From NCBI RefSeq assembly GCF_902364025.1, contig NZ_CABJCG010000007.1, forward strand, positions 186,001-250,000: a DNA stretch of 64,000 nucleotides, in the 5' to 3' direction. Numbering within the stretch: position 1 is the stretch's first letter; each line of letters starts with the position of its first letter. Made by a program: the position numbers and the translations under genes. Positions 1,100 to 26,490 of this stretch are shown here, in pieces. The notes beneath the pieces are model-generated. The model made no database searches. It worked only from the letters and a program-made list of their open reading frames with translations, and was not told the origin of the DNA. Origin of the DNA: Enterocloster lavalensis (lineage in GTDB: Bacteria; Bacillota; Clostridia; Lachnospirales; Lachnospiraceae).

Positions 1100-1123
1100 C
1101 ATAAGGGAAAATGAGGCCCAAAA

Positions 1124-1191: not shown

Positions 1192-1264
1192 GAATATAGC
1201 AAATGTGAGGCCGATACCAATTTGGAGGGTACCCCCGAGCAAAACCACAAGGAGGAGAATGGAA

Positions 1265-2463: not shown

Positions 2464-2465
2464 TT

Positions 2466-8834: not shown

Positions 8835-8860
8835 GGAGATTCTGCGGGAATGAGGTGGGC

Positions 8861-10003: not shown

Positions 10004-10005
10004 GC

Positions 10006-10175
10006 GGGCGTTCAGGATAACTGGGGTGTCGGTATAAACGGGCGTTCAGGATAACTGGATTGTCGGTATAAACGGGCGTTCGGGATAACTGGGGTGTCGG
10101 TATAAACGGGCATTCAGGATAACTGGGTCGTCGGTATAAACGGGCGTTCAGGATAATCGGGTTGTCGGTATAAAC
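10006..10175 (+). repeat. five tandem 34-bp direct repeats between regulator and maturase
   Basis: Five units of exactly 34 bp follow each other without insertions: 10006-10039, 10040-10073, 10074-10107, 10108-10141 and 10142-10175. Each begins GGGCGTTCAGGATAA (with small changes) and ends GTCGGTATAAAC. Each unit splits into two 17-bp halves that match at about 10 of 17 positions (GGG...TC.G.ATAA), so the array can be read as ten half-units. Stop codons in it rule out a coding role. It starts two bases after the regulator's stop and ends just before the maturase ribosome-binding site. Confidence 0.9.
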
Positions 10176-10208
10176 GAGTTTTAAGGACAGACAAAGGAGG
10201 ACACGGCC

Positions 10209-11391: not shown

Positions 11392-11722
11392 GAACAATTT
11401 GGAAAACGCAATTTATAAATTTTATACAAAAAGCTAAAACACATGAAAAATAAAATTGACAAACCTGTTGAGAAATCCTATAATGAGTTCATCGATAATG
11501 AATACGTATTAAACGAACAGGGCGTAATTATAAGGTATAATAGACAATTATAGTGTAAATGAATTGTTAAAACTTATTCAAAACGCCTTTTACTAACCTA
11601 TAAAATGTATACGTATTCAATATCATACCACATAAACCAGGCAGACAGGAAGAAGCTGATTCATCCGGCCGCCGGAGGGAGAATAAGCGCTCAATACGCG
11701 CTGAAAAAGAGGTGAGAATCAA
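11392..11722 (+). promoter_or_regulatory. promoter with two LacI-type operators before the desulfurase gene
   Basis: A consensus promoter is present: TTGACA (11456-11461), 17 bp, TATAAT (11479-11484). Two near-palindromes follow: TGAATACGTATTAA at 11499-11512, just past the start point, and TGTATACGTATTCA at 11606-11619. Their centres are 107 bp apart. Each differs by one base from TGAATACGTATTCA, the perfect palindrome at 18796-18809. The layout suggests repression by the LacI protein at 17477-18523, perhaps by looping. No gene lies in this AT-rich stretch. Confidence 0.75.
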
Positions 11723-12862
11723 ATGATCTATCTGGATAACAGCGCCACCACCCAGGTGGATGAGGATGTGGCCCGGGCGGCCTTTGAAGCCATGACCGTG
11801 AATTACGGCAACCCCTCGTCCCCCTACATGTTGGGCAGAGACGCCCTGACGCTGCTGACGCAGGCCAGGCACCAGGTGGCCCAGGTGATTGGAGCGCCCA
11901 CCAGGAGGCTGTTCTTTACCTCCGGCGGCACGGAGGCCAACAATCTGGCGGTGCGGGGAAGTCTCCTCGCAGACCGGGATCAGGCCCGGAAGGGCGGCAG
12001 GGTGGTGACCACCGCCATTGAGCACTCCTCGGTGCTGGCCTCCTGCCGATCTCTGGAGGAGGAAGGCTTTGAGGCCGTGTTCGTCAGCCCAAGGGGCGGG
12101 CGAATCCGGGCGGAGGACGTGATCGCGGCGGTGGATGAGCGCACGCGGCTGGTGTCCGTCATGGCGGTGAACAACGAGACGGGGGAGCGCCTTCCGGTGG
12201 AGGAGATCGCCCGGGGCGTGAAGGAGAAGAACCCGTCGGTTCTGGTGCACTGCGACTGCGTGCAGGGCTACGGCAAGATTCCGTTTACGCTGAACTGCAT
12301 CCCGGCCGACCTGGTTACCATGACTGCCCACAAGATTCACGGGCCCAAGGGCTGCGGAGCCATCTATGTGAGGGAGGGCGTGAAGCCTGGCCCCATCTGC
12401 TTCGGTGGCTCCCAGGAGAGCGCCCTACGGCCGGGCACCGAGAACGTGCCAGGGATCGCGGCCTTTGGCCTGGCGGCGGGCAACGCCTTAAAGGATATCC
12501 GCAAAAACTGGCTCCACGTGGAGATGCTGAACCGGTATCTGAGAGAGGAGCTGGAGCAGCAGCCCGAGGTGGTGATCAATTCGCCGGAGGGCGCGGTGCC
12601 TTACGTGCTCAACCTGTCCGTGCTGCCCTTTACCACGGAACAGATGGTGCACGAGATGCGGATGCGGGGAATTTACCTGTCTGGAAGCTCTGCCTGCGAA
12701 AAAGGGGCCAAGAGCCACGTGATCCGGGCCATGGGAATCGAAGCGTCAAGGGCTGACAGCGCGATCCGCATAGGGCTTGGAAAGAAAAATACCCTTCAGG
12801 AAATGAAGGTATTAATAGAAACTTTAAAAGAAATGATAAGGAGAGAAAAGAGTTATGAGTAA
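11723..12862 (+). CDS. cysteine desulfurase-like class V PLP enzyme (NifS/IscS family)
   Basis: This 379-aa fold-type I PLP enzyme has YLDNSATT at residues 3-10, TSGGTEANNLA (66-76), the PLP-stacking His101 in AIEHSS, the Schiff-base Lys204 in TAHKIHGPKG, and the catalytic-loop Cys325 in SGSSACEKGAK. These are the features of cysteine desulfurases, which move sulfur from cysteine to an active-site persulfide. Its place is odd: no iscU, nifU or thiI is nearby, and its stop overlaps the start of a fucose-isomerase-like gene in a LacI-controlled TRAP operon. It may therefore act on a catabolic substrate rather than in Fe-S assembly. Family assignment is firm; the role here is unknown. Confidence 0.85.
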   Translation: MIYLDNSATTQVDEDVARAAFEAMTVNYGNPSSPYMLGRDALTLLTQARHQVAQVIGAPTRRLFFTSGGTEANNLAVRGSLLADRDQARKGGRVVTTAIEHSSVLASCRSLEEEGFEAVFVSPRGGRIRAEDVIAAVDERTRLVSVMAVNNETGERLPVEEIARGVKEKNPSVLVHCDCVQGYGKIPFTLNCIPADLVTMTAHKIHGPKGCGAIYVREGVKPGPICFGGSQESALRPGTENVPGIAAFGLAAGNALKDIRKNWLHVEMLNRYLREELEQQPEVVINSPEGAVPYVLNLSVLPFTTEQMVHEMRMRGIYLSGSSACEKGAKSHVIRAMGIEASRADSAIRIGLGKKNTLQEMKVLIETLKEMIRREKSYE

Positions 12863-14291
12863 AATCAGTGAGAGCAGTACGTTAAATGTGAAATTGACAG
12901 TGAAACCAATTTTGTTTACTATGTATCATATACACGCTTACATGGGGCCGTGCCGTTACGGCGAGGGCTACGCTCTGACCACAGAGGCGGATATGGAGAC
13001 CACGCAGAAGGAATTTGAGATTTTCAAGAAAGAGCTGGCCGACGATGTGGATCACAGCAACGTGGAGCTTTTGGAGCCGGTGGTGGTTCACTGGCATGAG
13101 GATTTCGCCCTGAAGGAGGAGGAGATCGCCAAGGCTCTGGCGGACGACGCCAAGACCGATTTCTACCTGATCCGCGGACTGCGCATCTCTTCCTATTTTG
13201 CGGTGGAGCTGTCCAAACGCACCAACAAGCCCATTGGTCACACGCCCAACAAGTCGGCTATCTCCAAGTGCGACCACGTGGATATGACGGCCCATCTGTA
13301 CGCGGAGGGGAAACCTGGCTATGCCTTCCTGGACTTCGAGGAGATGAACCGCACCTTTGCGGCTCTGAGAGTCAAGAAGGCCCTGGCGAACACCAAGGTA
13401 TTCTTCCCGTTAAAGAGCGCCATGCTGACCTTCGGCTGCCAGAGCTCCTATCTGAACCTGGAGGACATCACCGAAAAGTTCAACGTGCGCTTCGCCCACG
13501 TCAATTCCGACGAGGTGTTCCAGTGGCTGGACGCCCTGACCGACGAGGAGAAGGCGGAGGCGGCGAAGCTGGCCGACCAGCTGACCCAGGAGTCCCAGGG
13601 CGTACATATGCCGGCGGAATACATCCGCAACGACACGGAGTTCTATGAGACCATCAAGAAGATGATGAAGCACTACGACTGCAACGCCTTCACCATCCCC
13701 TGCTTCGAGGTCTGCGCCACCCGGGAATTAAACCGGAGAAGGCTTACCTTCTGCCTGACCCACACCCTGTTAAAGGATGAGGGAATCGCCTCCGCCTGCG
13801 CCGGAGACGTGGGCTCCGTGCTCTCCATCACCATCCTGATGAACATTGCGCGCAAGGCCCCGTACATGGGCAATACCATGGTTCTGGACAAAGCGACCAA
13901 CCAGTGCAGGACGCTTCACGACGTGGCCAGCGCCCAGATGAAGGGCTACGACCAGCCGGCCCTTCCCACAGAGTTCGTCTCCTTCACTCTGGACTCCTGG
14001 GGAACCACCATGCGCTACGACTTTTCCAAGGATAACGGCCAGACTCTGACCATGATCAATCTGAGCCCGGATATGAAGAAGATCATGGTTGCCAAAGGCA
14101 CCATCAACGGCTGCGACGATTACCTGACGCCCGAGTGCAAGCACGCGGTGCGCTACACGGTGAAGGACGCGGTGCGGTTCCACGAGTGCCAGAAGTTCGT
14201 GGGACACCATTTTGCCCTGGTCTACGGGGATTACGTGGACGAAGTGAAGGCATTTGCCAAAGAATGCGATTTGGAGGTACTTGAAGCTTAA
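12855..14291 (+). CDS. L-fucose/L-arabinose isomerase-like protein, paralog 1 with altered motif
   Basis: This 478-aa protein resembles the fucose/arabinose isomerase superfamily (sugar isomerases that interconvert aldoses and ketoses with Mn2+). The N-terminal part (LTVKPILFTMYHIHAYMG, then FYLIRGLRISSYFAVEL) looks like the Rossmann-type domain, and the C-terminal part ends with FVGHHFALVYGDYVDEVK, where the family has its metal-site His. However, the usual CEAD motif reads SACAGDVGS around residue 313, so the conserved Glu is Ala. It overlaps the desulfurase gene by eight bases, pointing to a shared task. Catalysis may be changed or lost; substrate unknown. Confidence 0.65.
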   Translation: MSKISESSTLNVKLTVKPILFTMYHIHAYMGPCRYGEGYALTTEADMETTQKEFEIFKKELADDVDHSNVELLEPVVVHWHEDFALKEEEIAKALADDAKTDFYLIRGLRISSYFAVELSKRTNKPIGHTPNKSAISKCDHVDMTAHLYAEGKPGYAFLDFEEMNRTFAALRVKKALANTKVFFPLKSAMLTFGCQSSYLNLEDITEKFNVRFAHVNSDEVFQWLDALTDEEKAEAAKLADQLTQESQGVHMPAEYIRNDTEFYETIKKMMKHYDCNAFTIPCFEVCATRELNRRRLTFCLTHTLLKDEGIASACAGDVGSVLSITILMNIARKAPYMGNTMVLDKATNQCRTLHDVASAQMKGYDQPALPTEFVSFTLDSWGTTMRYDFSKDNGQTLTMINLSPDMKKIMVAKGTINGCDDYLTPECKHAVRYTVKDAVRFHECQKFVGHHFALVYGDYVDEVKAFAKECDLEVLEA

Positions 14292-14309
14292 GGTGCGCTC
14301 TGACCTGAG

Positions 14310-14344
14310 AAACCGGGCCGTATCAACTTATATGGCCCGGTTTT
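14310..14344 (+). terminator. stem-loop with T tail between the isomerase-like gene and dctP
   Basis: A perfect 10-bp stem (AAACCGGGCC paired with GGCCCGGTTT) with a 14-base loop and a T tail lies in the 112-bp gap. I see no convincing new promoter before dctP, so it may act as a partial terminator inside the operon. Confidence 0.7.
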
Positions 14345-14403
14345 ACAGGCGGCATATTTGGAAAACATAGACGGACACAACAGATTGGGAGGAGGCTGTC
14401 CTT

Positions 14404-15432
14404 ATGAAAAAATGGCGTACAGTTACGGCGATCGGCCTGGCCTGCACCCTGGTCCTCGGCTCTTTGGGGCTGACGGGATGCGGGAAAGCTGAAAAGAAAG
14501 ATGTGATTACCATCCGAATCGCACATGACAACAATGTAAACACTCCGCTGCACAAGGCGTTTTTAAAGTTTAAGGAGCTGGTGGAATCCGGTTCCAACGG
14601 CAGGATGGAGGTCGTGATCTTTCCCGGCGGGCAGATGGGAAGCGTGCAGGACACGTTTGAACAGTGCCGGCGCGGGGACATCGAGATGAGCGGTTCCACC
14701 ACCAGCAACTTTACACAGGCCATGCCTGAGCTTGCGGCCTGGGAGAGCTTTTACATGTTTGACGATACGGCCCACGCCAAGCGGGTCTTTGAGAGCGAGG
14801 CGGGCAAGAAGATGATGGAGCCGTTAAAGCGGGAGAATCTGACCGGCATCGGCTACATGGAACTGGGATTCCGCAATTTCTCCAACAGCAAACGCCCCAT
14901 CCAGAGCGAGGCTGATTTAAAGGGACTGAAGATACGCGGATACAATCCGCTTCAGATCAAAGCCTGGGAGTCGGTGGGAGTCAACACCACCAGCGTGAGC
15001 TGGAACGAACTGTTCACCTCCCTGCAGCAGAAGCTGATCGACGGCCAGGAGTGCGCCACCACCAGCTTTTACACGGAGAAATTTTACGAGGCCCAGAAAT
15101 ACTGGTCCCTGACCCGCCATGTGTTCACCAATTTCCTCTGGTATGCTAACACGGATTTCATGAATTCGCTTTCCGAGTCCGACCGGGCCTTCCTCATGGA
15201 GTGCGCCCAGGAAGCCATCGACTACAACTGGGAGCTGTCGGACCAGTCCGAGACGGAGATTCTGCAGAAACTTAAGGACAGCGGTTTTCAGGTAAACGAC
15301 GTGGATATCGCGGTGCGGCGCAGGCTGGGAGACACCATCAATGCGGCGATCAAGGACGACATTGTGGCCAGCTGCGGCGAGGACACCTACAACATGCTGA
15401 TGGACGCGGTGGCCGCCCAGCGCCGGGATTAG
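14404..15432 (+). CDS. dctP: TRAP transporter substrate-binding lipoprotein (DctP family)
   Basis: The 342-aa product starts with a lipoprotein signal ending LGLTGCGK, so it is anchored outside the membrane. The body is a DctP-type receptor: ITIRIAHDNNVNTPLHKAF at the N-terminus, GQMGSVQDTFEQCRRGDIEM, and LKGLKIRGYNP near residue 177, whose Arg normally clamps the substrate carboxylate. LIDGQECATTSFYTEKFYE is also typical. TRAP receptors bind organic or sugar acids, which suits the downstream sugar-acid enzymes. It is followed by dctQ after 11 bp. Confidence 0.92.
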   Translation: MKKWRTVTAIGLACTLVLGSLGLTGCGKAEKKDVITIRIAHDNNVNTPLHKAFLKFKELVESGSNGRMEVVIFPGGQMGSVQDTFEQCRRGDIEMSGSTTSNFTQAMPELAAWESFYMFDDTAHAKRVFESEAGKKMMEPLKRENLTGIGYMELGFRNFSNSKRPIQSEADLKGLKIRGYNPLQIKAWESVGVNTTSVSWNELFTSLQQKLIDGQECATTSFYTEKFYEAQKYWSLTRHVFTNFLWYANTDFMNSLSESDRAFLMECAQEAIDYNWELSDQSETEILQKLKDSGFQVNDVDIAVRRRLGDTINAAIKDDIVASCGEDTYNMLMDAVAAQRRD

Positions 15433-15443
15433 GAGGGATTGAG

Positions 15444-16052
15444 ATGAAGCGGACATTGAGGTGGTTTGACGTGAATTTTGAGGCAATCCTGATGGTTGTG
15501 TTTTTCACGATGATGATTGCGCTGGTGACGGTGCAGGTGATACTGCGTTTTATCTTTAAAACCGGCTTTTCATGGGGCGAAGAGGTGGCGCGGATTCTGT
15601 TCGTGTGGATGTCCTTCTCCAGCTTCGGGTATCTGACCCGCGGCAGCCGCCATGTGCGGGTGGGTTTTTTCAGGGAGCTGTTCCCGGAGACGGTGCAGAA
15701 GATTATTCTGTTCATCTGCGACTTGCTGTTTCTGGTCTTTTCCGTAGGGGGACTTTGCGCCATGGTGCAGCTGTGTTCGGACGCGTGGCGTTTTCAGGAT
15801 AAGCTGACCGCGGTGCCCTGGAACTACAACGTACTGTATCTGGCCGGACTCCTGGGTTTCTTTATGATGACGGTGCGCAATATCCAGATTCTGGTATGGA
15901 AATACTGTAACCGCGCTGCGGATATGGAGCGGTTTGTGAACTACGATGGCAACTTTTATGAGCACAACCGGATCTGCTTTGAGCCCAGGGTGAAGGACGC
16001 CCTGGACCTGGCGCAGGAGGAAGCCGGGGAACTGCTGGAGAAGGGGGAGTAA
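15444..16052 (+). CDS. dctQ: TRAP transporter small membrane subunit (DctQ family)
   Basis: This 202-aa protein has four hydrophobic spans (about residues 10-35, 45-65, 85-110 and 128-150), with SWGEEVARILFVWMSFS in the second, the conserved DctQ signature. It forms the membrane domain of the secondary TRAP importer together with DctM. It has a longer charged C-terminal tail than many family members. The start follows AGGAGG by seven bases. Confidence 0.9.
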   Translation: MKRTLRWFDVNFEAILMVVFFTMMIALVTVQVILRFIFKTGFSWGEEVARILFVWMSFSSFGYLTRGSRHVRVGFFRELFPETVQKIILFICDLLFLVFSVGGLCAMVQLCSDAWRFQDKLTAVPWNYNVLYLAGLLGFFMMTVRNIQILVWKYCNRAADMERFVNYDGNFYEHNRICFEPRVKDALDLAQEEAGELLEKGE

Positions 16053-16058
16053 CGGCTT

Positions 16059-17345
16059 ATGGCGGCGATATTATTGTTTGTAACTCTGATTCTGTTTCTG
16101 CTTCTTTCCGTGCCCATCGGCATCAGTCTGGGATTGGCTTCCCTGACCGCGATCCAGGGCTCTGACTGTATCAGCATGACGACCTTTGTCCAGTCCATGA
16201 TCCAGGGGCTGAACTCCTTCCCTCTGATGGCGGTGCCGCTGTTCACATTTGCGGGCGAGGTGATGGGAAAGGGAGGCATTTCCAGGCGTCTGATCGACCT
16301 GGCCAGGGTGTTTACGGGCCGTTTTACCGGCGGCCTGGGGATTGTGACCATCGTCACCTCCCTGTTCTTCGCGGCCATCGCCGGGACTGGCTCCGCGGCC
16401 GTGGCGGCCATCGGACTGATCATGATTCCGGCTATGGTAAAAAATGGATATGATAAAGGCTACTCCAGCGCGCTGGTAGCCACGGCCGGCACGGTGGGCG
16501 TCATCATTCCACCCAGCGTCTGTATGGTGGTGTACGCGGTGGCGGCGGGCGCTTCCATCAGCGGCCTGTTTATGGCCGGCATCATGCCGGGTCTGCTGAT
16601 CGGCGTTGGGCTGATCATCTATTCCGTGTTCTACTCCAAAAAGCATGGATATAAAGGGGACGACAAACGTTATACGCTTGCAGAGGCGGGCGCCATCGTT
16701 GTGAAGGCCATTCCCGGCCTGCTGATTCCCGTGATCATTCTGGGCGGCATCTACGGCGGAATCTTTACGCCCACCGAGGCCGCGGCCGTTGCCGGGGTTT
16801 ACGGCGTGCTCATCGGACTGTTTGTTTACAAGGAGATCAAGCCCGGCGATCTGGTCTACATCGTCTACCGCTCCGTGCTGATGTGCGCTCCGGTGCTGAT
16901 CATCATTGGAATCTCAACCGGCTTCGGAAGGATTCTGACCATCGCCCAGGTGCCGGTGGCCATCGCGGATGCGATTCTGGGACTGACCAGCAGCAAGGTG
17001 CTGGTGCTTCTGCTGATCAACGTGCTGCTGCTGATTGTGGGAACCTTTATGGAGACAAACGCGGCCATTATCATTCTCACGCCCATCCTGCTGCCCATCG
17101 TGACGCGGCTGGGAGTGGACGCCGTCCATTTCGGTATCATTGTGGTGATGAACCTGTCCATCGGATTTATCACGCCGCCTCTGGGCGCGAATTTGTTCAT
17201 GGCCTGCCAGGTGGGGGAGATATCCTTTGACAAGCTGACCAGAAAAATCTGGCCATGGATTGTGGTGATGATCATTCTGCTGATGCTGGTGACCTACATC
17301 CCGCAGATTTCCCTGGCGCTTCCTAAGGCCATGGGTGTGATATAG
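16059..17345 (+). CDS. dctM: TRAP transporter large permease (DctM family)
   Basis: This 428-aa protein with about 12 membrane segments is the Na+-coupled permease of a TRAP transporter. Landmarks are NSFPLMAVPLFTFAGEVMGKGG near residue 50, GTGSAAVAAIGLIMIPAM near 110, TVGVIIPPSV near 147, and FMETNAAIIILTPILLPI near 327, and PPLGANLFMACQVGE close to the end. It is the last gene of the unit that starts at 11723 and is followed by a strong terminator. Confidence 0.95.
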   Translation: MAAILLFVTLILFLLLSVPIGISLGLASLTAIQGSDCISMTTFVQSMIQGLNSFPLMAVPLFTFAGEVMGKGGISRRLIDLARVFTGRFTGGLGIVTIVTSLFFAAIAGTGSAAVAAIGLIMIPAMVKNGYDKGYSSALVATAGTVGVIIPPSVCMVVYAVAAGASISGLFMAGIMPGLLIGVGLIIYSVFYSKKHGYKGDDKRYTLAEAGAIVVKAIPGLLIPVIILGGIYGGIFTPTEAAAVAGVYGVLIGLFVYKEIKPGDLVYIVYRSVLMCAPVLIIIGISTGFGRILTIAQVPVAIADAILGLTSSKVLVLLLINVLLLIVGTFMETNAAIIILTPILLPIVTRLGVDAVHFGIIVVMNLSIGFITPPLGANLFMACQVGEISFDKLTRKIWPWIVVMIILLMLVTYIPQISLALPKAMGVI

Positions 17346-17385
17346 GAGCGCTGTTTCATCCGGTTTTTCCGGCAGACAGACGATT

Positions 17386-17448
17386 CGTCCCCGGTCAATG
17401 TTCCGCTGATCTTAAAAGAGCGGAGCCATTGCCGGGGACGTATTTTTT
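17386..17448 (+). terminator. terminator between dctM and the convergent lacI-type gene
   Basis: A long stem pairs 17386-17407 (CGTCCCCGG..) with 17419-17440 (..CCGGGGACG), with minor mismatches and an 11-base loop, followed by TTTTTT at 17443-17448. The T tract serves the plus strand; the stem may also help end the minus-strand gene. Confidence 0.8.
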
Positions 17449-17476
17449 GTCCTGATTATTCTCTTTCTGCCACACA

Positions 17477-18523
17477 CTAAGCTGTGCCGCGGGTCTTTAA
17501 GGTACAGGGGAACAGCGTCAGGTTGGTGTGGATGTCGGAGTCCTGTGGTGATAAAAGCTGTTCCAGGACTTTTTCGATCATGCTGTCCATGGGCTGCACG
17601 AAGGAGGTAATGTTGTAGGCGCTGTAGCTGGCCAGCTCGATGTCGTCGAAGCCGACGATGGCCACGTCCTCGGGCACCTTTAAACCGTATTCGTAGCGCG
17701 CGCAGTCCAGAACCCCGGCGCTGACCAGGTCGCTGACACAGAACAGGGCCTGGGGGCAGGAGCCTTCCTGTCCGATCAGGGCGCGCAGCCCCTCCTTGCC
17801 CGCCTCGTAGGTGAAGGCGGTATTGATGACGGGGCAGTGGTGGATTCCCCGCTCCTCCAGCCGGGAGACAAAGCCCTTTCGCCGGTCCAGACTGGTGGAG
17901 GCCTCGTCGGTGCCGCCGATGAAGGCGAAGCTGCGGTAGCCCTTCATGAAAAAGTAGTCCGCGCAGTCCCGCCCGGCCTGGACGTTGTCGCTGCACACGG
18001 CCCGGATTCCCGGGGTGCTCATATATCGGTTAAACAGGACCACCGGGACCCCGAAGTCCACGCAGATGTCCGCCAGATCGGAGGTCAGGGTCACGGAGGT
18101 GATCAGGATGCCGTCCACGCGGTATTGCAGGATTTGATGGATCAGATCCTGCATGTGGTGGGCGTCGTCCAGATAAAAAAACAGAATCTGCTTGCCCATG
18201 GCGCGCAAGCGGATGGAGAGCTTGCTGAGCACCGTGGCGTAGAAGGGATTGGTGGTGTTCTGCATGATGACCGCCACGATGTTGGTGCTGCTGGAGATCA
18301 GACTCCTGGCGATGGCGTCGGGCGCGTATTTTAAGGAGCGGGCGGCTTCCAGGACCCGCTGGCGCGTAGCAGGGTTCATCTTCGAGGAAGGGTTAAACGC
18401 TCTCGACACAGTGGCCTGGGATACGCCTGCCAGTTTGGCCACGTCGATGGAGGTGTTGTGGCCGCTCCCGGCTCCTCGCTTGCCGGGACTTTGGCCCTTG
18501 GGGCTGGATTCGGTATTGTTCAT
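17477..18523 (-). CDS. LacI-family repressor of the TRAP/sugar-acid regulon
   Basis: The product is 348 aa. After a 22-residue low-complexity N-terminal extension comes a LacI helix-turn-helix (TSIDVAKLAGVSQATVSRAF, about residues 24-43) and hinge, then a sugar-binding-type sensor (IVAVIMQNTTNPFYATVL, DGILITS, FIGGTDEASTSLDRRKGF, VAIVGFDDIELASYSAYNIT). It sits between the two operons whose promoters carry TGAATACGTATTCA operators with the central CG typical of LacI sites, so it is the best candidate repressor. The ribosome-binding site AAGGGGG precedes the ATG. The effector is unknown. Confidence 0.9.
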   Translation of the reverse strand: MNNTESSPKGQSPGKRGAGSGHNTSIDVAKLAGVSQATVSRAFNPSSKMNPATRQRVLEAARSLKYAPDAIARSLISSSTNIVAVIMQNTTNPFYATVLSKLSIRLRAMGKQILFFYLDDAHHMQDLIHQILQYRVDGILITSVTLTSDLADICVDFGVPVVLFNRYMSTPGIRAVCSDNVQAGRDCADYFFMKGYRSFAFIGGTDEASTSLDRRKGFVSRLEERGIHHCPVINTAFTYEAGKEGLRALIGQEGSCPQALFCVSDLVSAGVLDCARYEYGLKVPEDVAIVGFDDIELASYSAYNITSFVQPMDSMIEKVLEQLLSPQDSDIHTNLTLFPCTLKTRGTA

Positions 18524-18578
18524 TGGTAAGTCCCCCTTGCTGTTTTAAAATGGTGTGCAAACACATCAAATATAATTA

Positions 18579-18607
18579 ACAATAACATAAAATGTGCGTA
18601 TTTGCAA
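18579..18607 (-). promoter_or_regulatory. possible promoter of the lacI-type gene
   Basis: Reading the minus strand, TTGCAA (18602-18607), a 17-bp spacer and TATTGT (18579-18584) form a moderate promoter 56 bp before the start codon. Confidence 0.35.
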
Positions 18608-18956
18608 GAATCTTGTCCGGGCCGGACCGTGAATACGAAAACAATTCGGGCGAATTCTGAAAAACTGCCGTTCCGTTGTGTGAAATGCATAATAAGCATG
18701 GGCTGAAATTAAACATAATAACCAAAATATGAAAAAACGAAAAAATGCCATTGACGAATGGACCAGTAAGGGAATATAATGAGCTTACAAAGAAATGAAT
18801 ACGTATTCATTAGTGGGAATACATATGAGAATGAATCCGGAGAAATCGAGGACAAATGTCGAAAAATCGGGATTTATGCGGATTTTAAACAAGTATGATT
18901 TCGAAAAATGTATAGGTATTCATAAGCTCGAAAAACAGAACCAGGAGGAAGGAAAA
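18608..18956 (+). promoter_or_regulatory. promoter and two LacI-type operators before the LDH2 operon
   Basis: The promoter TTGACG (18751-18756), 18 bp, TATAAT (18775-18780) is followed by the perfect 18-bp palindrome AATGAATACGTATTCATT at 18794-18811, where the transcript should start. A second copy, TGTATAGGTATTCA (12 of 14 matches), lies at 18909-18922, centre-to-centre 113 bp away. TCGAAAAA occurs three times in the leader (18859, 18901, 18928). The ATG inside the palindrome (18795) has no ribosome-binding site and is not used. The leader is about 170 nt. Confidence 0.75.
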
Positions 18957-20021
18957 GTGGGCAATACAGTATTGATGCGCGGTGATACCGTGGCTGCGTT
19001 TACGCAGGAGCTATTTCAGAAGGCCGGAATGAGTGAGGCGGATGCCGGATACCATGCGGACTGTCTGGTCAAGACGAATTATTGGGGGATCGATTCCCAC
19101 GGCGTGATCCGAATTCCCGCCTATTTCAAACGGATGTTAAACGGAGCGATCAACGTGAATCCCGATATCCGGGTGATCCGCGGAGAGGGCTGCCTGGAAG
19201 TGATGGACGCGGACGCGGCGGCCGGATTCATCGGCGGGCGGGCCGGTATGGAGCGGGCCATGGAGAACGCGGCAAAGAACGGAATCGCCGCTGTGGGTAT
19301 GATCAACAGCAACCACTTCGGCGCAGGCGCGCTCTACGCGCGGATGGCGGCTGAGCGCGGGATGATCGGAATCGCCATGACCAACGTGAAGCCGCTAATC
19401 GTGGCGCCGGGGGCCACCAAGCCGGTGACCGGGAACAACCCCATCGCCTTCGGCATTCCTACATATGGAGACTTCCCCTTTGTATTGGATATCTCCCTCT
19501 CAGTGGTGGCGGGCGGCAAGCTGACCCTGGCCATCAAAAAGAAAGAGAAGATCCCAATGGACTGGGCCACAGACAAGGACGGACGTCCCACGGACGATCC
19601 CCAGGCAGCCTTCGACGGGTATCTGCTTCCCATGGGCGGGCACAAGGGACTGGGCCTGTCCTACGTGGTTGACATTCTGTCCGGCCTGATCACCGGAGGC
19701 GTGTTCTCCCAGGAGATGAAGAGCATGTACGCCAACCCCAAGGACCCCAGCCTGACCGGACATTTCTTCATCGCCATGGACATTTCCAAGATCATTTCCA
19801 AAGAGCAGATGAAGGAGCGCATGGCGCAGTTTAAGGACCGCCTGAAAGCGACTCCCATGTGGCAGGAGGGAGCGGAGATGCTGCTTCCGGGCGAGCTGGA
19901 GTACCGCAAAGAGGTGGAGCGCCGCAGGGACGGACTTCCGATTCCTGTGACGACCTATGAGGAGCTGGCGCAGCTGGCAAAGGAATACGATATCAAAGCA
20001 CCTTTAACGATTATAAAATAA
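18957..20021 (+). CDS. LDH2/MDH2-family NAD(P)-dependent oxidoreductase
   Basis: The product is 354 aa with a GTG start at 18957, eight bases after AGGAGG; the upstream open frame lacks such a site. It belongs to the malate/lactate dehydrogenase type 2 family (unrelated to classical LDH), which reduces 2-keto acids and diketo-sugar acids. Landmarks are YWGIDSHGVIRIPAY near residue 40, NSNHFGAGALYARMA near 120, NPIAFGIPT, MDWATDKDGRPTDDP near 198, and LLPMGGHKGLGLSYVVD near 223. It heads the second unit of the regulon, so it likely handles a sugar-derived 2-oxo or 2-hydroxy acid. Confidence 0.88.
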   Translation: MGNTVLMRGDTVAAFTQELFQKAGMSEADAGYHADCLVKTNYWGIDSHGVIRIPAYFKRMLNGAINVNPDIRVIRGEGCLEVMDADAAAGFIGGRAGMERAMENAAKNGIAAVGMINSNHFGAGALYARMAAERGMIGIAMTNVKPLIVAPGATKPVTGNNPIAFGIPTYGDFPFVLDISLSVVAGGKLTLAIKKKEKIPMDWATDKDGRPTDDPQAAFDGYLLPMGGHKGLGLSYVVDILSGLITGGVFSQEMKSMYANPKDPSLTGHFFIAMDISKIISKEQMKERMAQFKDRLKATPMWQEGAEMLLPGELEYRKEVERRRDGLPIPVTTYEELAQLAKEYDIKAPLTIIK

Positions 20022-20058
20022 GATCATTATTTTTGACAGAAAAAGGAGAGGTAAGATC

Positions 20059-20886
20059 ATGAAGCTGGAAAACAAGGTCGCCATCGTCACCGGAGGCACA
20101 AAGGGAATCGGGTATGGTATCGCGGAGGAGTATCTGAAGGAGGGCGCAAAGGTCACCATCTGCTCCCGCAATGAGAAGGAGGGCGCGAAAGCCCTGGAAG
20201 AGCTCGGCAGACTGGGCGAGGTCATTTACGTACAGGCGGACGTTTCCTCCATCGAGGATAACCAGAGACTGGTGGACGAGACGGTGAAGCGGTTCGGACA
20301 GCTGGACATTTTCGTGGCCAACGCCGGGATCAATGATCCTGATAAAACCCATTATCTGGATATTACCGAGGAGCAGTACGACCGGATTCTGGGCGTGAAC
20401 TTAAAGGGGCTGTTCTTCGGAGACCAGCTGGCGGCCCGCCAGATGGTGAAGCAGGGACACGGCGGTTCCATCGTGAACATTTCCTCAGTCAACGCTTATC
20501 TGGCCCTGGACAGCCAGATGTGCTACACCACCAGCAAGGGCGGCGTCAGCCAGCTGACCAAGGTGCAGGCGGTGGCCCTGACCCCCTACGACATCAAGGT
20601 CAACGCCATCTGCCCCGGCCCCATCGAGAGCGAGCTCATGCGGCGCGTGGGTTCTGACGAGCAGCTGTTCAACACGGTGATCTCCAGAACGCCCATCGGA
20701 CGCATCGGAACACCCAATGAGTGCGGCAGACTGGCGGTATTCCTGGCCTGCGACGACTCCAACTTTGTCTACGGCCAGTCCATCTACATCGACGGCGGCA
20801 GAAGCTTCCAGGCGTTCCCGGTGCCGGGCTACAAGACCGTGACCGACGAGCAGTACGCGAAGCTGATGGAATTGGAACAAAAATAG
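20059..20886 (+). CDS. short-chain dehydrogenase/reductase
   Basis: This 275-aa classical SDR has the cofactor motif TGGTKGIG (residues 11-18), NAG in VANAGIN near 92, catalytic Ser in NISSVNAY near 142, and YTTSK near 156-160 carrying the catalytic Tyr and Lys. The C-terminal FVYGQSIYIDGG is the usual family ending. In the cluster it probably oxidises a sugar or polyol, perhaps to the lactone that the SMP-30 protein opens. The exact substrate cannot be read. Confidence 0.9.
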   Translation: MKLENKVAIVTGGTKGIGYGIAEEYLKEGAKVTICSRNEKEGAKALEELGRLGEVIYVQADVSSIEDNQRLVDETVKRFGQLDIFVANAGINDPDKTHYLDITEEQYDRILGVNLKGLFFGDQLAARQMVKQGHGGSIVNISSVNAYLALDSQMCYTTSKGGVSQLTKVQAVALTPYDIKVNAICPGPIESELMRRVGSDEQLFNTVISRTPIGRIGTPNECGRLAVFLACDDSNFVYGQSIYIDGGRSFQAFPVPGYKTVTDEQYAKLMELEQK

Positions 20887-20901
20887 AGGAGGATGGGTCC
20901 T

Positions 20902-22335
20902 ATGAAAAAAATGAATCTGCCGAAGGTGGGCATGATCACCTTCAGTGATCCCAGAGAGCACGAGTACAAGGTGCTGTACGAGGAAAAGACCGCGACCCGC
21001 ATGAAACAGGCGGTGGAGTATTTCGCGGATTACGATATAGAGTTATATACCTTTGACCAGGCGGCCCGGTCTCCCCAGGAGATCGACCGTCAGACCAAGG
21101 AGCTCATGCAGAAGGGCGTGGAGGTGTTCATCGCCAACATTCCCTGCTGGACCTGGCCCAACGGCGTGGTGCGCGGCGTATTGAACATGGGCCTGCCCAC
21201 GGTGCTCATGTCCAACGATGATCCCAGCACCCACGGAACGGTGGGACTTCTGGGGTCGGGCGGAGCGTTGAACCAGATCGGCTACCGCCACCTGCGCATC
21301 CAGCAGGATTTCACGGATGTGCATCCGAACCTGTTCGACACCAAGCTTATGCCCTATATCCGGGCGGCCGCGGCGGTCCGTAAGCTTCAGGGCCAGGTGT
21401 TCGGCTTCATCGGAGGCCGTTCCCTGGGAATCGACACGGGCAGCTTCGACCCCATGCAGTGGAAAAAGCAGTTCAAGATCGACAGCGACCACGTGGATCA
21501 CGAGGAGATCATCCGCCGGGCGGAGGCAGTGGACCCGGAGCGCATCGAGAAAGCCTTCAAGTGGCTGGTGGAGTCCGTGGGGGCCGTCAAGTACGATGAG
21601 AAGCTGACCGAGGAGCGCCTGAAATACCAGGTGGCCTGCTATCTGGCTACCAAGGACATTATCGCAGAGCGCCATCTGGACTTCGGCGCCATCAAGTGCA
21701 TGCCCGATCTGACCAATTTCAGAGCTCCCCAGTGCATTTCCACGGCGCTGCTCAACGGCGGCTATGACGGGGACGGGGAATTCGAACCGTTTCCCATCTC
21801 CTGCGAGGCGGACGCGGACGGAGCCCTGAGCATGGAAATCTTAAAGCTGGTATCCGGCGGCATGCCCACCATGTTCGCGGACGTGAGCCACATCGGCTAC
21901 GCGGAGAAGCTGATCTACCTGCCCAACTGCGGTTCCATGTGCACCTACTACGCAGGGCGCTCCTGCGACGGCTGCCGGAACATGAAGAATATCGAGCTGC
22001 GCCGCGCCAACCGGCCTTCCGGCGGAGCCGTTACCTTCACGGTGCCCAGCGCCGGAGCCATGACCATGGCCAGACTCTGCCGGGTGGACGGAGCGTACCA
22101 GATGTTTATCATCGAGACGGAGTTCGTGGAGCCGTCCAAAGAGATTCTGGATGCCTTCGTGAAGGCCAGAGGCGTGCACCAGCTGCCGGTGGCATTTATG
22201 AAAGCGGACTTTGACATTGAAAAGTTTGTGGACGTATTCAATTCCAACCACATCAGCGGAGTGGCCGGAAACTACAAGCAGGAACTCATCGATCTGTGCG
22301 GCATTCTCGGCATCGAGCCGGTGGTGATCGGCTGA
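20902..22335 (+). CDS. L-fucose/L-arabinose isomerase-like protein, paralog 2
   Basis: This 477-aa protein is a clear member of the fucose isomerase superfamily. FPISCEADADGALSMEIL (Cys301, Glu302, Asp304) matches the metal-site motif, DVSHI follows, and NHISGVAGNYKQELIDLC near the C-terminus holds the expected His. The ATG at 20902 is nine bases after GAGGAGG, whereas the ATG at 20893 touches that site, so the shorter form is real. Compared with the paralog at 12855 it keeps the Glu. It may isomerise an aldose or a sugar-acid intermediate; the substrate is unknown. Confidence 0.8.
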   Translation: MKKMNLPKVGMITFSDPREHEYKVLYEEKTATRMKQAVEYFADYDIELYTFDQAARSPQEIDRQTKELMQKGVEVFIANIPCWTWPNGVVRGVLNMGLPTVLMSNDDPSTHGTVGLLGSGGALNQIGYRHLRIQQDFTDVHPNLFDTKLMPYIRAAAAVRKLQGQVFGFIGGRSLGIDTGSFDPMQWKKQFKIDSDHVDHEEIIRRAEAVDPERIEKAFKWLVESVGAVKYDEKLTEERLKYQVACYLATKDIIAERHLDFGAIKCMPDLTNFRAPQCISTALLNGGYDGDGEFEPFPISCEADADGALSMEILKLVSGGMPTMFADVSHIGYAEKLIYLPNCGSMCTYYAGRSCDGCRNMKNIELRRANRPSGGAVTFTVPSAGAMTMARLCRVDGAYQMFIIETEFVEPSKEILDAFVKARGVHQLPVAFMKADFDIEKFVDVFNSNHISGVAGNYKQELIDLCGILGIEPVVIG

Positions 22336-22355
22336 GAATCGGAGGCGGTATCGCA

Positions 22356-23273
22356 ATGGGACTTACATATCAAGCCTTTGACAAACGATTTTTCGACATA
22401 GTGGACGTGGACCAGGAGCTGGAGACGGTCCACTCCGGCTTTACCTTCATTGAAGGTCCAATCTGGAACAGCAAAACGGGCTGCCTGACGTTTAACGACA
22501 TCCCGGAGAGCCGGACCTACCGCCTTCACCCGGACGGCAGCGTGACGCTGCTGCGGGAAAATACCCACAAGGCCAACGGCAACGCCTACGACTGGGAGGG
22601 GAATATCATCGTGTGCGAGCACGTGAGAAGCTGCATCTCCCGCACGGACGACCAGGGAAACGGCCTCACGGTTCTGGCCGCTCACTACGGGGATAAGGAG
22701 CTCAACAGCCCAAACGACGTGGTGGTGAAAAGCGACGGCGTGATCTATTTCACGGACCCGCGTTTTGGCAGAAACGCGTCCCGGGTAGGGCTGGGGCGGC
22801 CCCAGGATCTGGATTTCCAGGGACTGTTCTCCTTCAACCCGGCGGACGGCAGGCTGCGGCTTCTGGCGGACGATTTTGAGAACCCCAACGGACTCTGCTT
22901 CTCAAAGGACGAATCCTGGCTGTTTGTCAACGATTCGCCCCGCAAACACATCCGCCGCTTCAGGGTGGAGCCGGACGGCTCCCTGTCCGGCGGCGCGGTG
23001 TGGGCCGAGACCACGGGGGAGGGGCCGGGGCTTCCCGACGGCATGAAGCTGGATGGAGATGAAAACGTATACTGCTGCGCCCAGGGCGGCATCCATATAT
23101 TCAACCGGAACGCGGATTATCTGGGAATCGTGCGCGTCCCGGAACAGACCGGCAACTGCGCCTTCGGAGGCCCGGGGATGGATACGCTCTACCTGGCCGC
23201 CTCCACCACCCTTTACAGCTTCAAAATCAAGGGAAGCGCAGACCGCAGACAGGAGGAGAGAACAAATGGTTAG
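22356..23273 (+). CDS. SMP-30/gluconolactonase-family lactonase
   Basis: This 305-aa six-bladed beta-propeller protein hydrolyses sugar lactones with a divalent metal. Landmarks are FTFIEGPIWNSKTGCLTFNDIP (metal-site Glu near residue 33), NSPNDVVVKSDGVIYFTDPRFG near 123 (metal-site Asn), NPNGLCFSKDESWLFVNDS near 180, and LPDGMKLDGDENVYC near 227 (catalytic Asp). It follows the dehydrogenase genes, as expected for an oxidative route in which a lactone is formed and opened. The end overlaps the aldolase gene by eight bases. Confidence 0.9.
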   Translation: MGLTYQAFDKRFFDIVDVDQELETVHSGFTFIEGPIWNSKTGCLTFNDIPESRTYRLHPDGSVTLLRENTHKANGNAYDWEGNIIVCEHVRSCISRTDDQGNGLTVLAAHYGDKELNSPNDVVVKSDGVIYFTDPRFGRNASRVGLGRPQDLDFQGLFSFNPADGRLRLLADDFENPNGLCFSKDESWLFVNDSPRKHIRRFRVEPDGSLSGGAVWAETTGEGPGLPDGMKLDGDENVYCCAQGGIHIFNRNADYLGIVRVPEQTGNCAFGGPGMDTLYLAASTTLYSFKIKGSADRRQEERTNG

Positions 23274-24033
23274 GGAAAACCCAGTGAAACAGAAACTGAA
23301 AAACGGGGAAGCGGTGATCGGAACCTTTGTCAAGACCACCGATCCCAGCGTGATCGAGATTTTGGGGTGTACCGGGATGGAATTTTTTGTAATCGACAGC
23401 GAGCATGTCGCCTACAACCCGGAGACCGTCACCGATCTGGTGCGGGCCTCGGACCTGACGGGAATCGTCCCCATCGTCCGGGTGCGCGAGGCCACGGCGG
23501 TGAATATCATGCAGGCGCTGGACGCCGGGGCTCTGGGATACCACGCTCCTAATGTGGATACGCTGGAGCAGGCCAGAACCGCGGTGGACGCGGGACGGTA
23601 TACGCCCCTGGGCAACAGAGGCTTTGCGCCCACCCACCGCGCCGCCAACTACGGCATGATGGATAAGCAGGAGTATATCGACCGGGCCAACCGGGAGATT
23701 CTTACCATCATCCACTGCGAGACCATGGAGTCTCTGGGCAATCTGGATGAGATGTTAAAGCTTCCGGAGCTGGACGTGGTGTTCATCGGACCCATGGATC
23801 TGTCCCAGTCCCTTGGCCGGGACGTGATGGGCCAGCGCAACCATCCCAAACTTCTGGCTGCCATCGACGAGATCATCGAGAAGGTCAACCGGGCCGGCAA
23901 AGCGGTGGGAACCGTGGCAGACAACCCGCAGATGGCCAAGGAACTGATCGCCAAGGGCGTGCGCTACATCCCCATCAGCTCCGATCAGGGTATGATCGCC
24001 AATATGGCAAAGCAGATCATGAAGGAATTTTAA
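23266..24033 (+). CDS. HpcH/HpaI-family class II pyruvate aldolase
   Basis: This 255-aa enzyme belongs to the metal-dependent HpcH/HpaI family, which splits 4-hydroxy-2-oxo acids into pyruvate and an aldehyde. Landmarks are FVIDSEHVAYNP (catalytic His near residue 48), VPIVRVREA (Arg), GALGYHAPNVDT, the metal ligand Glu in HCETMESLGNLDEM near 147, and FIGPMDLSQSLG with the metal-site Asp near 173. It would perform the carbon-carbon cleavage after oxidation, lactone opening and dehydration. No obvious sugar-acid dehydratase is encoded nearby. Confidence 0.9.
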   Translation: MVRENPVKQKLKNGEAVIGTFVKTTDPSVIEILGCTGMEFFVIDSEHVAYNPETVTDLVRASDLTGIVPIVRVREATAVNIMQALDAGALGYHAPNVDTLEQARTAVDAGRYTPLGNRGFAPTHRAANYGMMDKQEYIDRANREILTIIHCETMESLGNLDEMLKLPELDVVFIGPMDLSQSLGRDVMGQRNHPKLLAAIDEIIEKVNRAGKAVGTVADNPQMAKELIAKGVRYIPISSDQGMIANMAKQIMKEF

Positions 24034-24084
24034 ATCAAAACGCTGTAAAAAAACATTTATGAATAGAAAAAAGGAGATCAAATC

Positions 24085-24999
24085 ATGAAAAAACAGACTG
24101 AATTCAAATTGAACAAGAGAGATTCCGTATGGTTCCAGGACAACTCGGCGGCAGTGAACTGCGCATACGCCAAGGAAGTATGCGACCTGGCGATCCTGCC
24201 CATCGGCGCCATCGAGCAGCACGGACCCCACTGCCCCTGCGGCAGCGACTCCTTCAACGCCATGGGGATCGCCGAGGCGGTAGCCAAGAAGTCCGGCGCT
24301 ATGATTCTGGCCTGCCCGATGTACGGCTCTCATCCCGCCCACCACTGGGGCATGCCGGGAACCATCCCGCTGACCTTTGAGACCCATGTGGGACTGCTCA
24401 CCGACATCATCCGCGGCGCTGCCAACGCAGGCTACAACAAGTTCCTGATCATTTCCGCCCATGGCCAGACCATGTCCATGTTCGAAGCGGTTCACAAGGC
24501 CGGCATCGAGGGATATTTCACAGTGGGCAGCACCTGGTACGATTTCCTGCGCGACAACAAGAAGACCCTGGACACCTATATGTGGCATGCGGATGAGGCG
24601 GAGACCTCCGTTGCACTGTCCCTGTACCCGGATAAGGTACATATGGACCTGGCGGTTCCGGGCACGGCTCACGGCCTGATCGATTCCAAGTGGAAGATCG
24701 CTCCCGGCCAGGCGGCCGGAGAGGGCATGCTGTATCACTTCGAGGGCACCTTCTCCCTGATGGAGAAGGACGATCTGGACACCGGCGTCATCGGCGATCC
24801 CACCAATGCCAGCAAGGAAAAGGGCGACAAGATCGTGGAGCGCTGCGCGGACCTGTACTGCGAGCTGGTGGATGAGATCATGACCAAGTACCCCTGCGGC
24901 GTGAATCCCCTGGGCTTCCGCAATCCACTGGGATACAACGGCACCAACAATATCCAGTACGACAGCATGCACGACGAGCACGGCAGACTGAAAAAGTAA
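24085..24999 (+). CDS. creatininase-family amidohydrolase/lactone hydrolase
   Basis: This 304-aa protein has the creatininase fold. The metal motif LPIGAIEQHGPHCPCGSD (residues about 38-55) contains the Glu, His and Asp ligands, followed by HPAHHWGMPGTIPL and ISAHGQTMSM, where family members read GHGGN. The family covers creatininase, mycofactocin and formamide hydrolases and, from memory, a hydrolase of diketo-inositol in Thermotoga. In this cluster it more likely opens a cyclic intermediate than creatinine. It lies 51 bp after the aldolase, with AAGGAG before the ATG. Confidence 0.85.
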   Translation: MKKQTEFKLNKRDSVWFQDNSAAVNCAYAKEVCDLAILPIGAIEQHGPHCPCGSDSFNAMGIAEAVAKKSGAMILACPMYGSHPAHHWGMPGTIPLTFETHVGLLTDIIRGAANAGYNKFLIISAHGQTMSMFEAVHKAGIEGYFTVGSTWYDFLRDNKKTLDTYMWHADEAETSVALSLYPDKVHMDLAVPGTAHGLIDSKWKIAPGQAAGEGMLYHFEGTFSLMEKDDLDTGVIGDPTNASKEKGDKIVERCADLYCELVDEIMTKYPCGVNPLGFRNPLGYNGTNNIQYDSMHDEHGRLKK

Positions 25000-25026
25000 T
25001 GATTGAGAGAGGCGGGCGGGAGTGAT

Positions 25027-26490
25027 ATGAGAGAGACCGGCAGAATTTCAGCAAATGAACTCAACAGGGCGTGTTCCCGGGACGATGGGGCGGTCAGCCG
25101 CCTTTTAACGGAAGAAATTGGAAAAAGCCAGGGGAAGATCGTGGTTCTGGACGATGATCCCACAGGCGTCCAGACCGTGCACGGCGTATCGGTGTACACG
25201 GACTGGTCCCGCGAATCCGTACTCCGGGGCTTTGAGGAGGAGAACCGGCTGTTCTACATTCTCACCAACTCCCGCGGCTTCACGGTGGAGGAGACGAGGC
25301 GGGCGCACCGGGAGATCGCCGGAAATATCGCCTGGGCGGCGCGGATGACCGGCAGGGAGTTCGTGATCGTCAGCCGCGGCGACTCCACCCTGAGGGGGCA
25401 TTATCCCCTGGAGACGGAGGTGCTCAGGCAGACCCTGGAGGAAGAGGAGCACTGGCATGTGGACGGCGAGGTGATCTGTCCCTTCTTTCTGGAGGGCGGC
25501 CGGTTCACCCTCGACAATGTGCACTACGTGCGTTGCGGCGGGGAGCTGGTTCCGGCGGGACAGACGGAGTTCGCGGCCGACCGCACCTTCGGCTACCGGT
25601 CCTCGGACCTTCGGGACTATGTGGAGGAAAAGACGGGCGGAGCTTACCCGGCGGAGAGCGTGAGCTGCATCCCGCTGGAATATCTGCGGAGCGGGGCGGT
25701 GGATCAGATCACCGGCATCCTGCTGGCGGTGAAGGACTTCGGCAAGGTGGTGGTGAACGCGGTGGATTACGGGGATTTGCGCGTATTCTGCCTGGCGCTT
25801 TACCGGGCAATGGCTCAGGGCAGGTCTTTTATGTTCCGAACCGCCGCCTCCTTTGTGAAGGTGTTCGGAGGCATCAAGGACCGCCCGCTGCTTGCGGGAA
25901 GCGAGCTGCTTGACGGGCGCGCCGGGCGCGGAGGCGTCATCGTCGTGGGCTCCCACACGGAAAAGACCACCCGGCAGCTGGCTGAGCTTCAAAAGGTTCC
26001 CGGGATTACATTTTTGGAGTTTAATTCCGACCTGGTGCTGGACCCAGAGGCATTCCGGGAGGAGATCGGGCGGACGATCCGGGAGATGGAACGGCGGATC
26101 GCGGCCGGGCAGACCGTGGCGGTCTTTACGCGCCGGACGCTGCTTGAGATTCCAGGGGATACTCCCGAGGCTGCGCTGCTGCGGTCGGTGAAGATTTCGG
26201 ACGCGGTGCAGTCTCTGGTGGCAAGCCTGAAAACGGCTCCGGCCTACGTGGTCGCAAAGGGCGGGATCACCTCCTCCGACGTGGGGGTGAAGGCCCTTCA
26301 GGTCAAACGGGCCGACGTGCTCGGGCAGATCCGCCCGGGCGTTCCCGTCTGGAGAACCGGGCCGGAGAGCCGTTTCCCTGGAATCCCCTATGTGATTTTC
26401 CCCGGAAATGTGGGGGAGGACGGAACGCTCAGGGAAGCGGTGGAAATCCTCTTGGCCGCGGGAAACGGCGGGGAGAGCCGGGATTTATAG
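25027..26490 (+). CDS. DUF1537 four-carbon acid sugar kinase-family protein
   Basis: This 487-aa protein has the N-terminal DUF1537 domain (VVLDDDPTGVQTVHG near residue 38, YILTNSRGF, SRGDSTLRGHYPLE) and the C-terminal nucleotide-binding domain (VVAKGGITSSDVGVKALQ, PGVPVWRTG, FPGNVGEDGTL). The family phosphorylates erythronate, threonate or oxo-tetronates. The canonical KSGNFG reads FPGNVG here. ATG 25027 follows GGGAG closely; a TTG at 25003 has no site. It ends the operon and would phosphorylate a short acid-sugar product, probably the aldolase-derived fragment or an alternative substrate. Confidence 0.87.
   Translation: MRETGRISANELNRACSRDDGAVSRLLTEEIGKSQGKIVVLDDDPTGVQTVHGVSVYTDWSRESVLRGFEEENRLFYILTNSRGFTVEETRRAHREIAGNIAWAARMTGREFVIVSRGDSTLRGHYPLETEVLRQTLEEEEHWHVDGEVICPFFLEGGRFTLDNVHYVRCGGELVPAGQTEFAADRTFGYRSSDLRDYVEEKTGGAYPAESVSCIPLEYLRSGAVDQITGILLAVKDFGKVVVNAVDYGDLRVFCLALYRAMAQGRSFMFRTAASFVKVFGGIKDRPLLAGSELLDGRAGRGGVIVVGSHTEKTTRQLAELQKVPGITFLEFNSDLVLDPEAFREEIGRTIREMERRIAAGQTVAVFTRRTLLEIPGDTPEAALLRSVKISDAVQSLVASLKTAPAYVVAKGGITSSDVGVKALQVKRADVLGQIRPGVPVWRTGPESRFPGIPYVIFPGNVGEDGTLREAVEILLAAGNGGESRDL

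Follow-up and report, generated by a model that had tools for sequence, protein, structure and literature searches.

Dedicated pairs of a cysteine desulfurase and a client are known for NifS with nitrogenase, for NifS with NadA and for DndA, and among desulfurases the class II SufS type is the one that needs SufE. Here we describe a putative pair of this kind in a stretch of 64,000 nucleotides from Enterocloster lavalensis (contig NZ_CABJCG010000007.1, positions 186,001 to 250,000; hereafter, the window), where a gene for a NifS-like desulfurase overlaps by 8 nucleotides the gene for a protein with a sugar isomerase fold, which we denote iso1. As in the described pairs, the desulfurase stands beside a single client and not in a general Isc/Suf system; the putative client here is an isomerase-fold protein, which in sister clades is joined by SufE and a small companion protein. 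Iso1 differs from the L-fucose, D-arabinose and L-arabinose isomerases in the absence of a Pfam isomerase match, in the residues A316 and N340 at its metal site, in its invariant cysteines and in the desulfurase neighbor. We found no description of the pairing of an iso1-type isomerase with a cysteine desulfurase in the full-text literature searched, which leaves most subscription journals outside its coverage, and the same literature yielded no relevant paper on the set of a DUF1537 protein, a TRAP transporter and an isomerase, or on scyllo-inosose hydrolase. The two genes, with the start of the second inside the 3' end of the first, are as follows:

11723..12862, + strand, NifS-like class I cysteine desulfurase (Aminotran_5), with the motif MTAHKIHGPKG for the pyridoxal phosphate (PLP) lysine and with Cys325 in SSACEKG
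12855..14291, + strand, iso1, isomerase-fold protein with a changed metal site and invariant cysteines

The desulfurase matches PF00266 with 196.9 bits and contains both class I desulfurase motifs, which we take to be those of the PLP lysine and the catalytic cysteine, and it misses the NCBIfam equivalog cut-offs for NifS (322.4 of 530.75 bits) and IscS (258.1 of 643.2 bits).

Linkage of iso1-family genes to cysteine desulfurases

A scan of genome contigs with a 21-row iso1 alignment yielded 11 loci. In the loci L004 to L011, an iso1 relative is found with a nearby cysteine desulfurase and without the set of LDH2, SDR, SMP-30, HpcH and DUF1537 genes that surrounds the pair in the window (a creatininase-family gene is present in L005 and L007). 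The desulfurase is thus tied to iso1 and not to the sugar-acid pathway. The original prediction for this region, in which the desulfurase pointed to a sulfur-containing substrate, is undercut by this pattern, in which the desulfurase is conserved without the sugar-acid set and which extends to further loci.

Wider whole-genome searches (E 1e-30, centre genomes counted among the matches) detected the iso1 family in 3 of the 391 genomes of the class of G003 and in 21 of the 348 genomes of its family, in 8 of 246 genomes of the class of the Adlercreutzia genome G011, and in 2 of 296 genomes of the phylum of the Spirochaetales genome G004. Given how few genomes were positive in these searches, the family is rare and patchy; its range here covers Clostridia, Spirochaetales and the class of Adlercreutzia. 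The matches were followed up apart from repeats of known places, with L049, a duplicate of L011, dropped and the near-identical-looking L109 and L110 both counted. The tally comprises 59 iso1-family genes, including that of the window, with profile scores of at least 150 bits; these genes are related and do not represent independent events.

A cysteine desulfurase is encoded within 3 kb of 49 of the 59 iso1-family genes (45 on the same strand), SufE is found near 33 and the small companion protein, denoted small110, near 36. Either a desulfurase or SufE is present near 54 of these genes, and all 59 have a desulfurase, SufE or small110, the latter being the sole companion in five loci (L053, L055, L056, L107 and L112). 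The counts are unchanged when the desulfurase profile is cleaned of three stray rows from L066, the lowest score then being 222 bits. Because the sequences for the partner profiles came from the loci found first, L102 to L112, which played no part in their construction, provide a cleaner test; the 13 iso1 genes in these loci have a desulfurase in 10 cases, SufE in 10 and small110 in all 13.

The chance level, estimated from 11 genomes of about 38.1 Mb with 65 matches to PF00266, in which the partners are counted, is about 1.5% for a stretch of 8.5 kb. Of the 15 iso1-family genes in these genomes, a count that omits three weak rows (E above 1e-12), 14 have a PF00266 match within 2.6 kb; the fifteenth lies on a 6.9-kb contig without such a match. 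Nine other isomerase-family genes, which were identified in these 11 genomes with a profile of iso2, the second isomerase-like protein of the window, and lie outside the cluster, served as a control: none has a desulfurase within 3 kb, with at least 3 kb of contig available on either side of all nine. Considering this result, iso2 was rejected as the desulfurase partner. No other cluster gene was found within about 1.5 kb on each side, the extent of the loci, of the iso2 homologs in L114 to L118. The association of iso1 with the desulfurase is strong.

At least three iso1-family genes each are present in the genomes G555, G622, G623, G811 and G949, and in L059, L062, L063, L103 and L108 two such genes are located close together. 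The presence of multiple iso1-family genes per genome suggests paralogs with different substrates.

Desulfurase types and companion proteins

Three types of desulfurase accompany iso1: class I in the clade that includes the window, class II SufS with the motif RxGxxC, and a type with the motif RxGLHC[AS]P that, judging from this motif, we take to be EF2568-like. SufE follows the type, being present in 27 of the 31 loci with a class II enzyme, in none of 8 class I loci and in none of 9 EF2568-like loci; L060, whose desulfurase open reading frame (ORF) is split, was left out of the class I tally because its other fragment carries the class II motif and SufE is present. The SufE assignment was checked for a single member, in L059 (8250-8645), which matches PF02657 with 125 bits. 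On the iso1 tree, a quick tree of 65 rows in which 16 of 62 inner branches are open, the desulfurase type changes at least 3 times, and one of the changes (L007/L008) is nested within the window's own clade. The swapping of the enzyme with retention of the activity, together with SufE following the type that needs it, argues for real sulfur mobilization. The class II loci thus resemble the SufS-SufE sulfur transfer system, with the difference that iso1 and the small protein are the companions that recur in the loci read, Suf scaffold genes not having been specifically sought.

The small companion contains an invariant cysteine and an invariant serine, and a T94-S95 pair directly before a helix is invariant. 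It has no DSL motif, which contains the phosphopantetheine attachment serine of acyl carrier proteins, and is possibly acyl-carrier-protein-like. The desulfurase ORFs in L050 (6413-7987) and L051 (11187-12806) also match the small110 profile, and the two proteins are apparently fused naturally in these loci. The EF2568-like/iso1 loci encode another companion, sm245 (98 amino acids), for which no Pfam family was found, and GH31 genes recur near such loci (L058, L065 to L067, L069, L072 and L075; one member was searched against families). L004 and L046, from one Spirochaetales genome, are both iso1 loci near members of a shared family, c34, that by eye is GH88-like.

Dedicated desulfurases commonly feed sulfur-insertion enzymes, and iso1 might accordingly take over the persulfide of NifS, or that of SufS-SufE passed on by the small companion as a carrier, and insert the sulfur into the imported compound to yield a thio-sugar or thio-acid intermediate. 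The encoding of SufE and of a small protein with invariant Cys and Ser together with iso1 in the sister clades fits such a scheme, as do the genes resembling cysteine synthase and MetY (named by eye) near the iso1-family operon of L061. Nevertheless, we consider substrate thiolation rather unlikely: in catabolism every molecule of substrate would use up a cysteine, the families assigned to the block include no known thio-sugar enzyme, and the operons in L046, L047 and L071 appear to be confined to the small companion, the desulfurase, SufE and iso1.

Fold, metal site and cysteines of iso1

No Pfam family was detected in iso1 at E 0.001, PF02952, PF07881 and PF07882 included, and its profile has no match among PDB sequences at E 1. 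The only NCBIfam match is to the sulfoquinovose isomerase SftI (NF048012; 49.3 bits, under the cut-off of 700), and the sources name iso1 relatives 'L-fucose isomerase-like' or hypothetical. In a structure search, the predicted model of iso1 corresponds to the whole three-domain fold of the L-fucose and L-arabinose isomerases, with only about 11% identity to the L-fucose, D-arabinose and L-arabinose isomerases (1fui, 3a9r and 2ajt). Iso2, by comparison, scores above the cut-offs of PF02952, PF07881 and PF07882, with SftI again the best NCBIfam match (65.7 of 700 bits), and its E305, D330 and H453 align with E342, D366 and H532 of the D-arabinose isomerase 3a9r, presumably the metal ligands. 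The view of the two proteins as both isomerase-like holds; they are not equivalent, however, because iso2 keeps the canonical ligands whereas iso1 has lost two of the three.

The changed ligand positions of iso1 are A316 and N340, which align with E305 and D330 of iso2. The Glu position is occupied by alanine in all 10 members of the core clade and by Glu or Asp in the other 43 of 43 iso1-family sequences; the Asp position is asparagine, and this ligand thus lost, in 53 of 53 sequences. H452, at the position of the His ligand, D318 and H355 are retained in all 53. Six cysteines (Cys33, 283, 287, 300, 315 and 428) are present in 53 of 53 sequences, and Cys276 in 52. Low-confidence loops of the model, at 31-40, 131-140, 181-200 and 281-290, include C33, C283 and C287, which is compatible with a cofactor that is absent from the prediction. 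Additional relatives from environmental sequences (P0099 and P0101 to P0120), about 36-42% identical, come without genomic context.

These features bear on two further explanations. Iso1 could be an ordinary sugar isomerase and the desulfurase an unrelated neighbor hitchhiking in the operon, as the full predicted isomerase fold, the universal H452 and the Glu or Asp ligand in every sequence outside the core clade would suggest. The window's clade lacks two of the ligands, however, and all 53 sequences lack the Asp, and the linkage in 49 of 59 cases, involving three desulfurase types, stands against the 1.5% expected and the complete lack of such neighbors among the control isomerase genes; we regard this explanation as improbable. 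Alternatively, iso1 could be a carrier or scaffold of sulfur or Fe-S clusters for another enzyme instead of a pathway enzyme, in line with its many cysteines and the operon-like groups that it forms with the desulfurase, SufE and the small companion in L046, L047 and L071. In our estimate the probability of this role is low, given that iso1 also occurs in catabolic operons beside transporters and glycosidases, and that D318, H355 and H452 are retained in all sequences on a predicted sugar isomerase fold.

The regulon and its genes

The iso1-desulfurase pair of the window belongs to a block that spans positions 11723-26490. All genes of the block, including the families named in the original prediction, are intact ORFs according to the ORF list and family searches:

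14404..15432, + strand, TRAP DctP solute receptor
15444..16052, + strand, TRAP DctQ small permease
16059..17345, + strand, TRAP DctM large permease
17477..18523, - strand, LacI-family regulator, the presumed operator binder
18957..20021, + strand, LDH2-type NAD(P) dehydrogenase (Ldh_2), with a proposed GTG start
20059..20886, + strand, SDR dehydrogenase
20893..22335, + strand, iso2, L-fucose/D-arabinose isomerase-family protein (Fucose_iso) with E305, D330 and H453
22356..23273, + strand, SMP-30/gluconolactonase family protein (SGL)
23266..24033, + strand, HpcH/HpaI class II aldolase, nearest to YfaU/4-hydroxy-2-oxoheptanedioate aldolase
24085..24999, + strand, creatininase-family hydrolase, under the IolN cut-off
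25003..26490, + strand, kinase of the DUF1537 family (SBD_N and NBD_C)

Two operons of the block are preceded by palindromic sites of the LacI type:

11497..11514, unstranded, operator copy 1 before the NifS gene (AATGAATACGTATTAAAC)
11604..11621, unstranded, operator copy 2 before the NifS gene
18794..18811, unstranded, perfect 18-bp palindromic operator (AATGAATACGTATTCATT) before the LDH2 gene
18907..18924, unstranded, second operator copy before the LDH2 gene

The pattern AATGNATACGTATTNA, with at most 2 mismatches, gives 6 strand matches, all at these four sites and none elsewhere in the 64 kb; in 100 shuffles the mean is 0.21 matches and none reaches 6. The confinement of the operator in the window to the two operons makes the desulfurase part of the catabolic regulon, and the LacI protein of the block probably binds the 18-bp palindromes. 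Sites within 4 mismatches of the 18-mer precede the same two operons in the related loci L001 and L003, and in L002 the leading gene of the operon has such a site before it. Elsewhere in L001 are two additional sites, at 236 and 451, and L077 and L078 have no site at the same threshold. The listed ORF start of the LDH2 gene, at 18795, falls within an operator; the likely start is the GTG at 18957 behind AGGAGG, which would give a product of 355 amino acids, as in the relative in L003.

The gene order of the block is kept in L003 (the DUF1537 gene there was called by eye) and, up to HpcH, where the retrieved stretch ends, in L001. The block proteins in these two loci are 76-92% identical to those of the window, with 99% for a partial creatininase stretch. 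L002, from Niameybacter, contains each of the 13 families at 35-76% identity and in a different arrangement. The conservation in L003 and L001 and the shuffled recurrence in L002 indicate more than a chance assembly; by these sequence comparisons, the gene set is confirmed as real, with the boundaries 11723-26490 backed by a relative. The proposal of a co-regulated, conserved set for import and catabolism with families of the sugar-acid type is borne out by the operators and by L001 to L003.

The substrate cannot be assigned from substrate-specific NCBIfam models, which the block proteins match far under the cut-offs, and no Pfam or NCBIfam family more specific than a generic TRAP receptor was found for DctP. 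The best NCBIfam model for LDH2 is the L-sulfolactate dehydrogenase (NF040650; 247.3 bits, under the cut-off of 500). The creatininase-family protein is closest to IolN, the 3-dehydro-scyllo-inosose hydrolase (NF041098; 168.2 bits, under the cut-off of 245), and no block family is inositol-specific. The DUF1537 protein falls short of both DtnK (38.6 of 450 bits) and OtnK (20.4 of 350 bits). The block resembles the DUF1537 sugar-acid kinase pathways with OtnK or DtnK in combining such a kinase with dehydrogenases and an acid-type importer, and the HpcH aldolase stands in place of their usual partners.

If the substrate itself contained sulfur, the PLP enzyme could be a C-S lyase or a desulfurase acting on it, as the original prediction had implied. 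This explanation can draw on the L-sulfolactate dehydrogenase model nearest to LDH2, on the weak matches of iso1 and iso2 to SftI, the sole NCBIfam family matched by the former and the best for the latter, and on a sulfatase encoded upstream of the block. We nevertheless consider it very improbable: the model matches of LDH2, iso1 and iso2 are all far under the cut-offs; the block has no assigned family that is sulfoglycolysis-specific; the PLP enzyme retains the desulfurase lysine and cysteine motifs, is replaced elsewhere by SufS, mostly with SufE, and accompanies iso1 without the rest of the set; and the upstream sulfatase and maturase have no match in L001 to L003.

The sulfatase (7476-8834) contains the motif CGPCR, presumably the active-site motif of Cys-type sulfatases, and is encoded near an anSME maturase (10209-11342) that scores above the NCBIfam cut-off. 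Together with a TctA-type transporter (5976-7472) and a GntR/periplasmic-type regulator, the two form a separate neighboring cluster; none of these four has a match in L001 to L003 at E 1e-8, and the sulfatase and anSME (7476-11342) were rejected as pathway members. Elsewhere in the window we noted by eye citrate-lyase-like subunits with a transporter-like ORF (4-4025; without a family search), a pair of short chromate-transporter-like ORFs (27500-28623) and a long aconitase-like ORF (30833-33127).

Proposed role of iso1

In the scheme that we favor, a LacI-controlled regulon would import an organic acid or sugar acid through the TRAP transporter; SDR and LDH2 would oxidize the imported acid, iso2 would isomerize it and HpcH would cleave it as an aldolase, with lactone opening and, through the DUF1537 kinase, phosphorylation as further steps. 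The dedicated desulfurase and iso1 would form a separable, wider module within this regulon. NifS would hand sulfur to iso1, where it would be held in the altered active site; an Fe-S cluster is its most likely form and a persulfide the alternative, and this sulfur center would serve chemistry other than the Mn-dependent aldose-ketose isomerization. In the window's clade, the class I NifS would act alone with iso1, and in the sister clades SufS would work with SufE and the small, possibly acyl-carrier-protein-like partner.

A plausible reaction for iso1 in this cluster is sugar-acid dehydration. No known sugar-acid dehydratase is found among the families assigned to the block genes, and the presence of dehydrogenases, a lactonase and a 2-keto-3-deoxy-acid-type aldolase but no assigned dehydratase makes iso1 the obvious candidate. 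Overall, we give about an even chance to the reading of iso1 as a client of the desulfurase: built on the isomerase fold, it would be supplied with sulfur in the form of an Fe-S cluster or a persulfide and would take the imported acid as its substrate, perhaps to dehydrate it.

Several observations weigh against this reading. A desulfurase was not found within 3 kb of 10 of the 59 iso1-family genes (in L044, L052, L053, L055, L056, L062, with two genes, L105, L107 and L112), with a contig end no more than 0.7 kb away on one side in just three of these loci (L044, L053 and L056). The canonical iso2 also has cysteines at the positions aligned with iso1 Cys283, 300 and 315, and these three are therefore not necessarily cluster ligands. 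Iso2 has no counterpart of C276 and C287; C33 lies outside the alignment and C428 where the two proteins align weakly, and the confidence of the profile alignment is middling (probability 87%). No nameable Fe-S scaffold gene is present among the recurrent neighbor clusters, although no dedicated scaffold search was made. Finally, other iso1 neighborhoods include GH31, a GAT-family phosphotransferase system with creatininase, and acyl-CoA genes (by eye), and this variety indicates that the family probably has several substrates across hosts.

More tentatively, and with somewhat less than even confidence, we propose that iso1 represents a new class of sulfur-dependent enzymes on the sugar isomerase fold, in which the Mn site would be replaced by a cysteine-bound sulfur center loaded by a relay of desulfurase, SufE and a carrier-like small protein, and which anaerobes would use in many transporter-linked pathways, here as a dehydratase. 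If this is the case, cysteine desulfurases would have in iso1 a type of client not seen before, the isomerase fold would have a further, new use, and a role would emerge for a family now labeled 'L-fucose isomerase-like' or hypothetical, whose isomerase labels would then probably be wrong.

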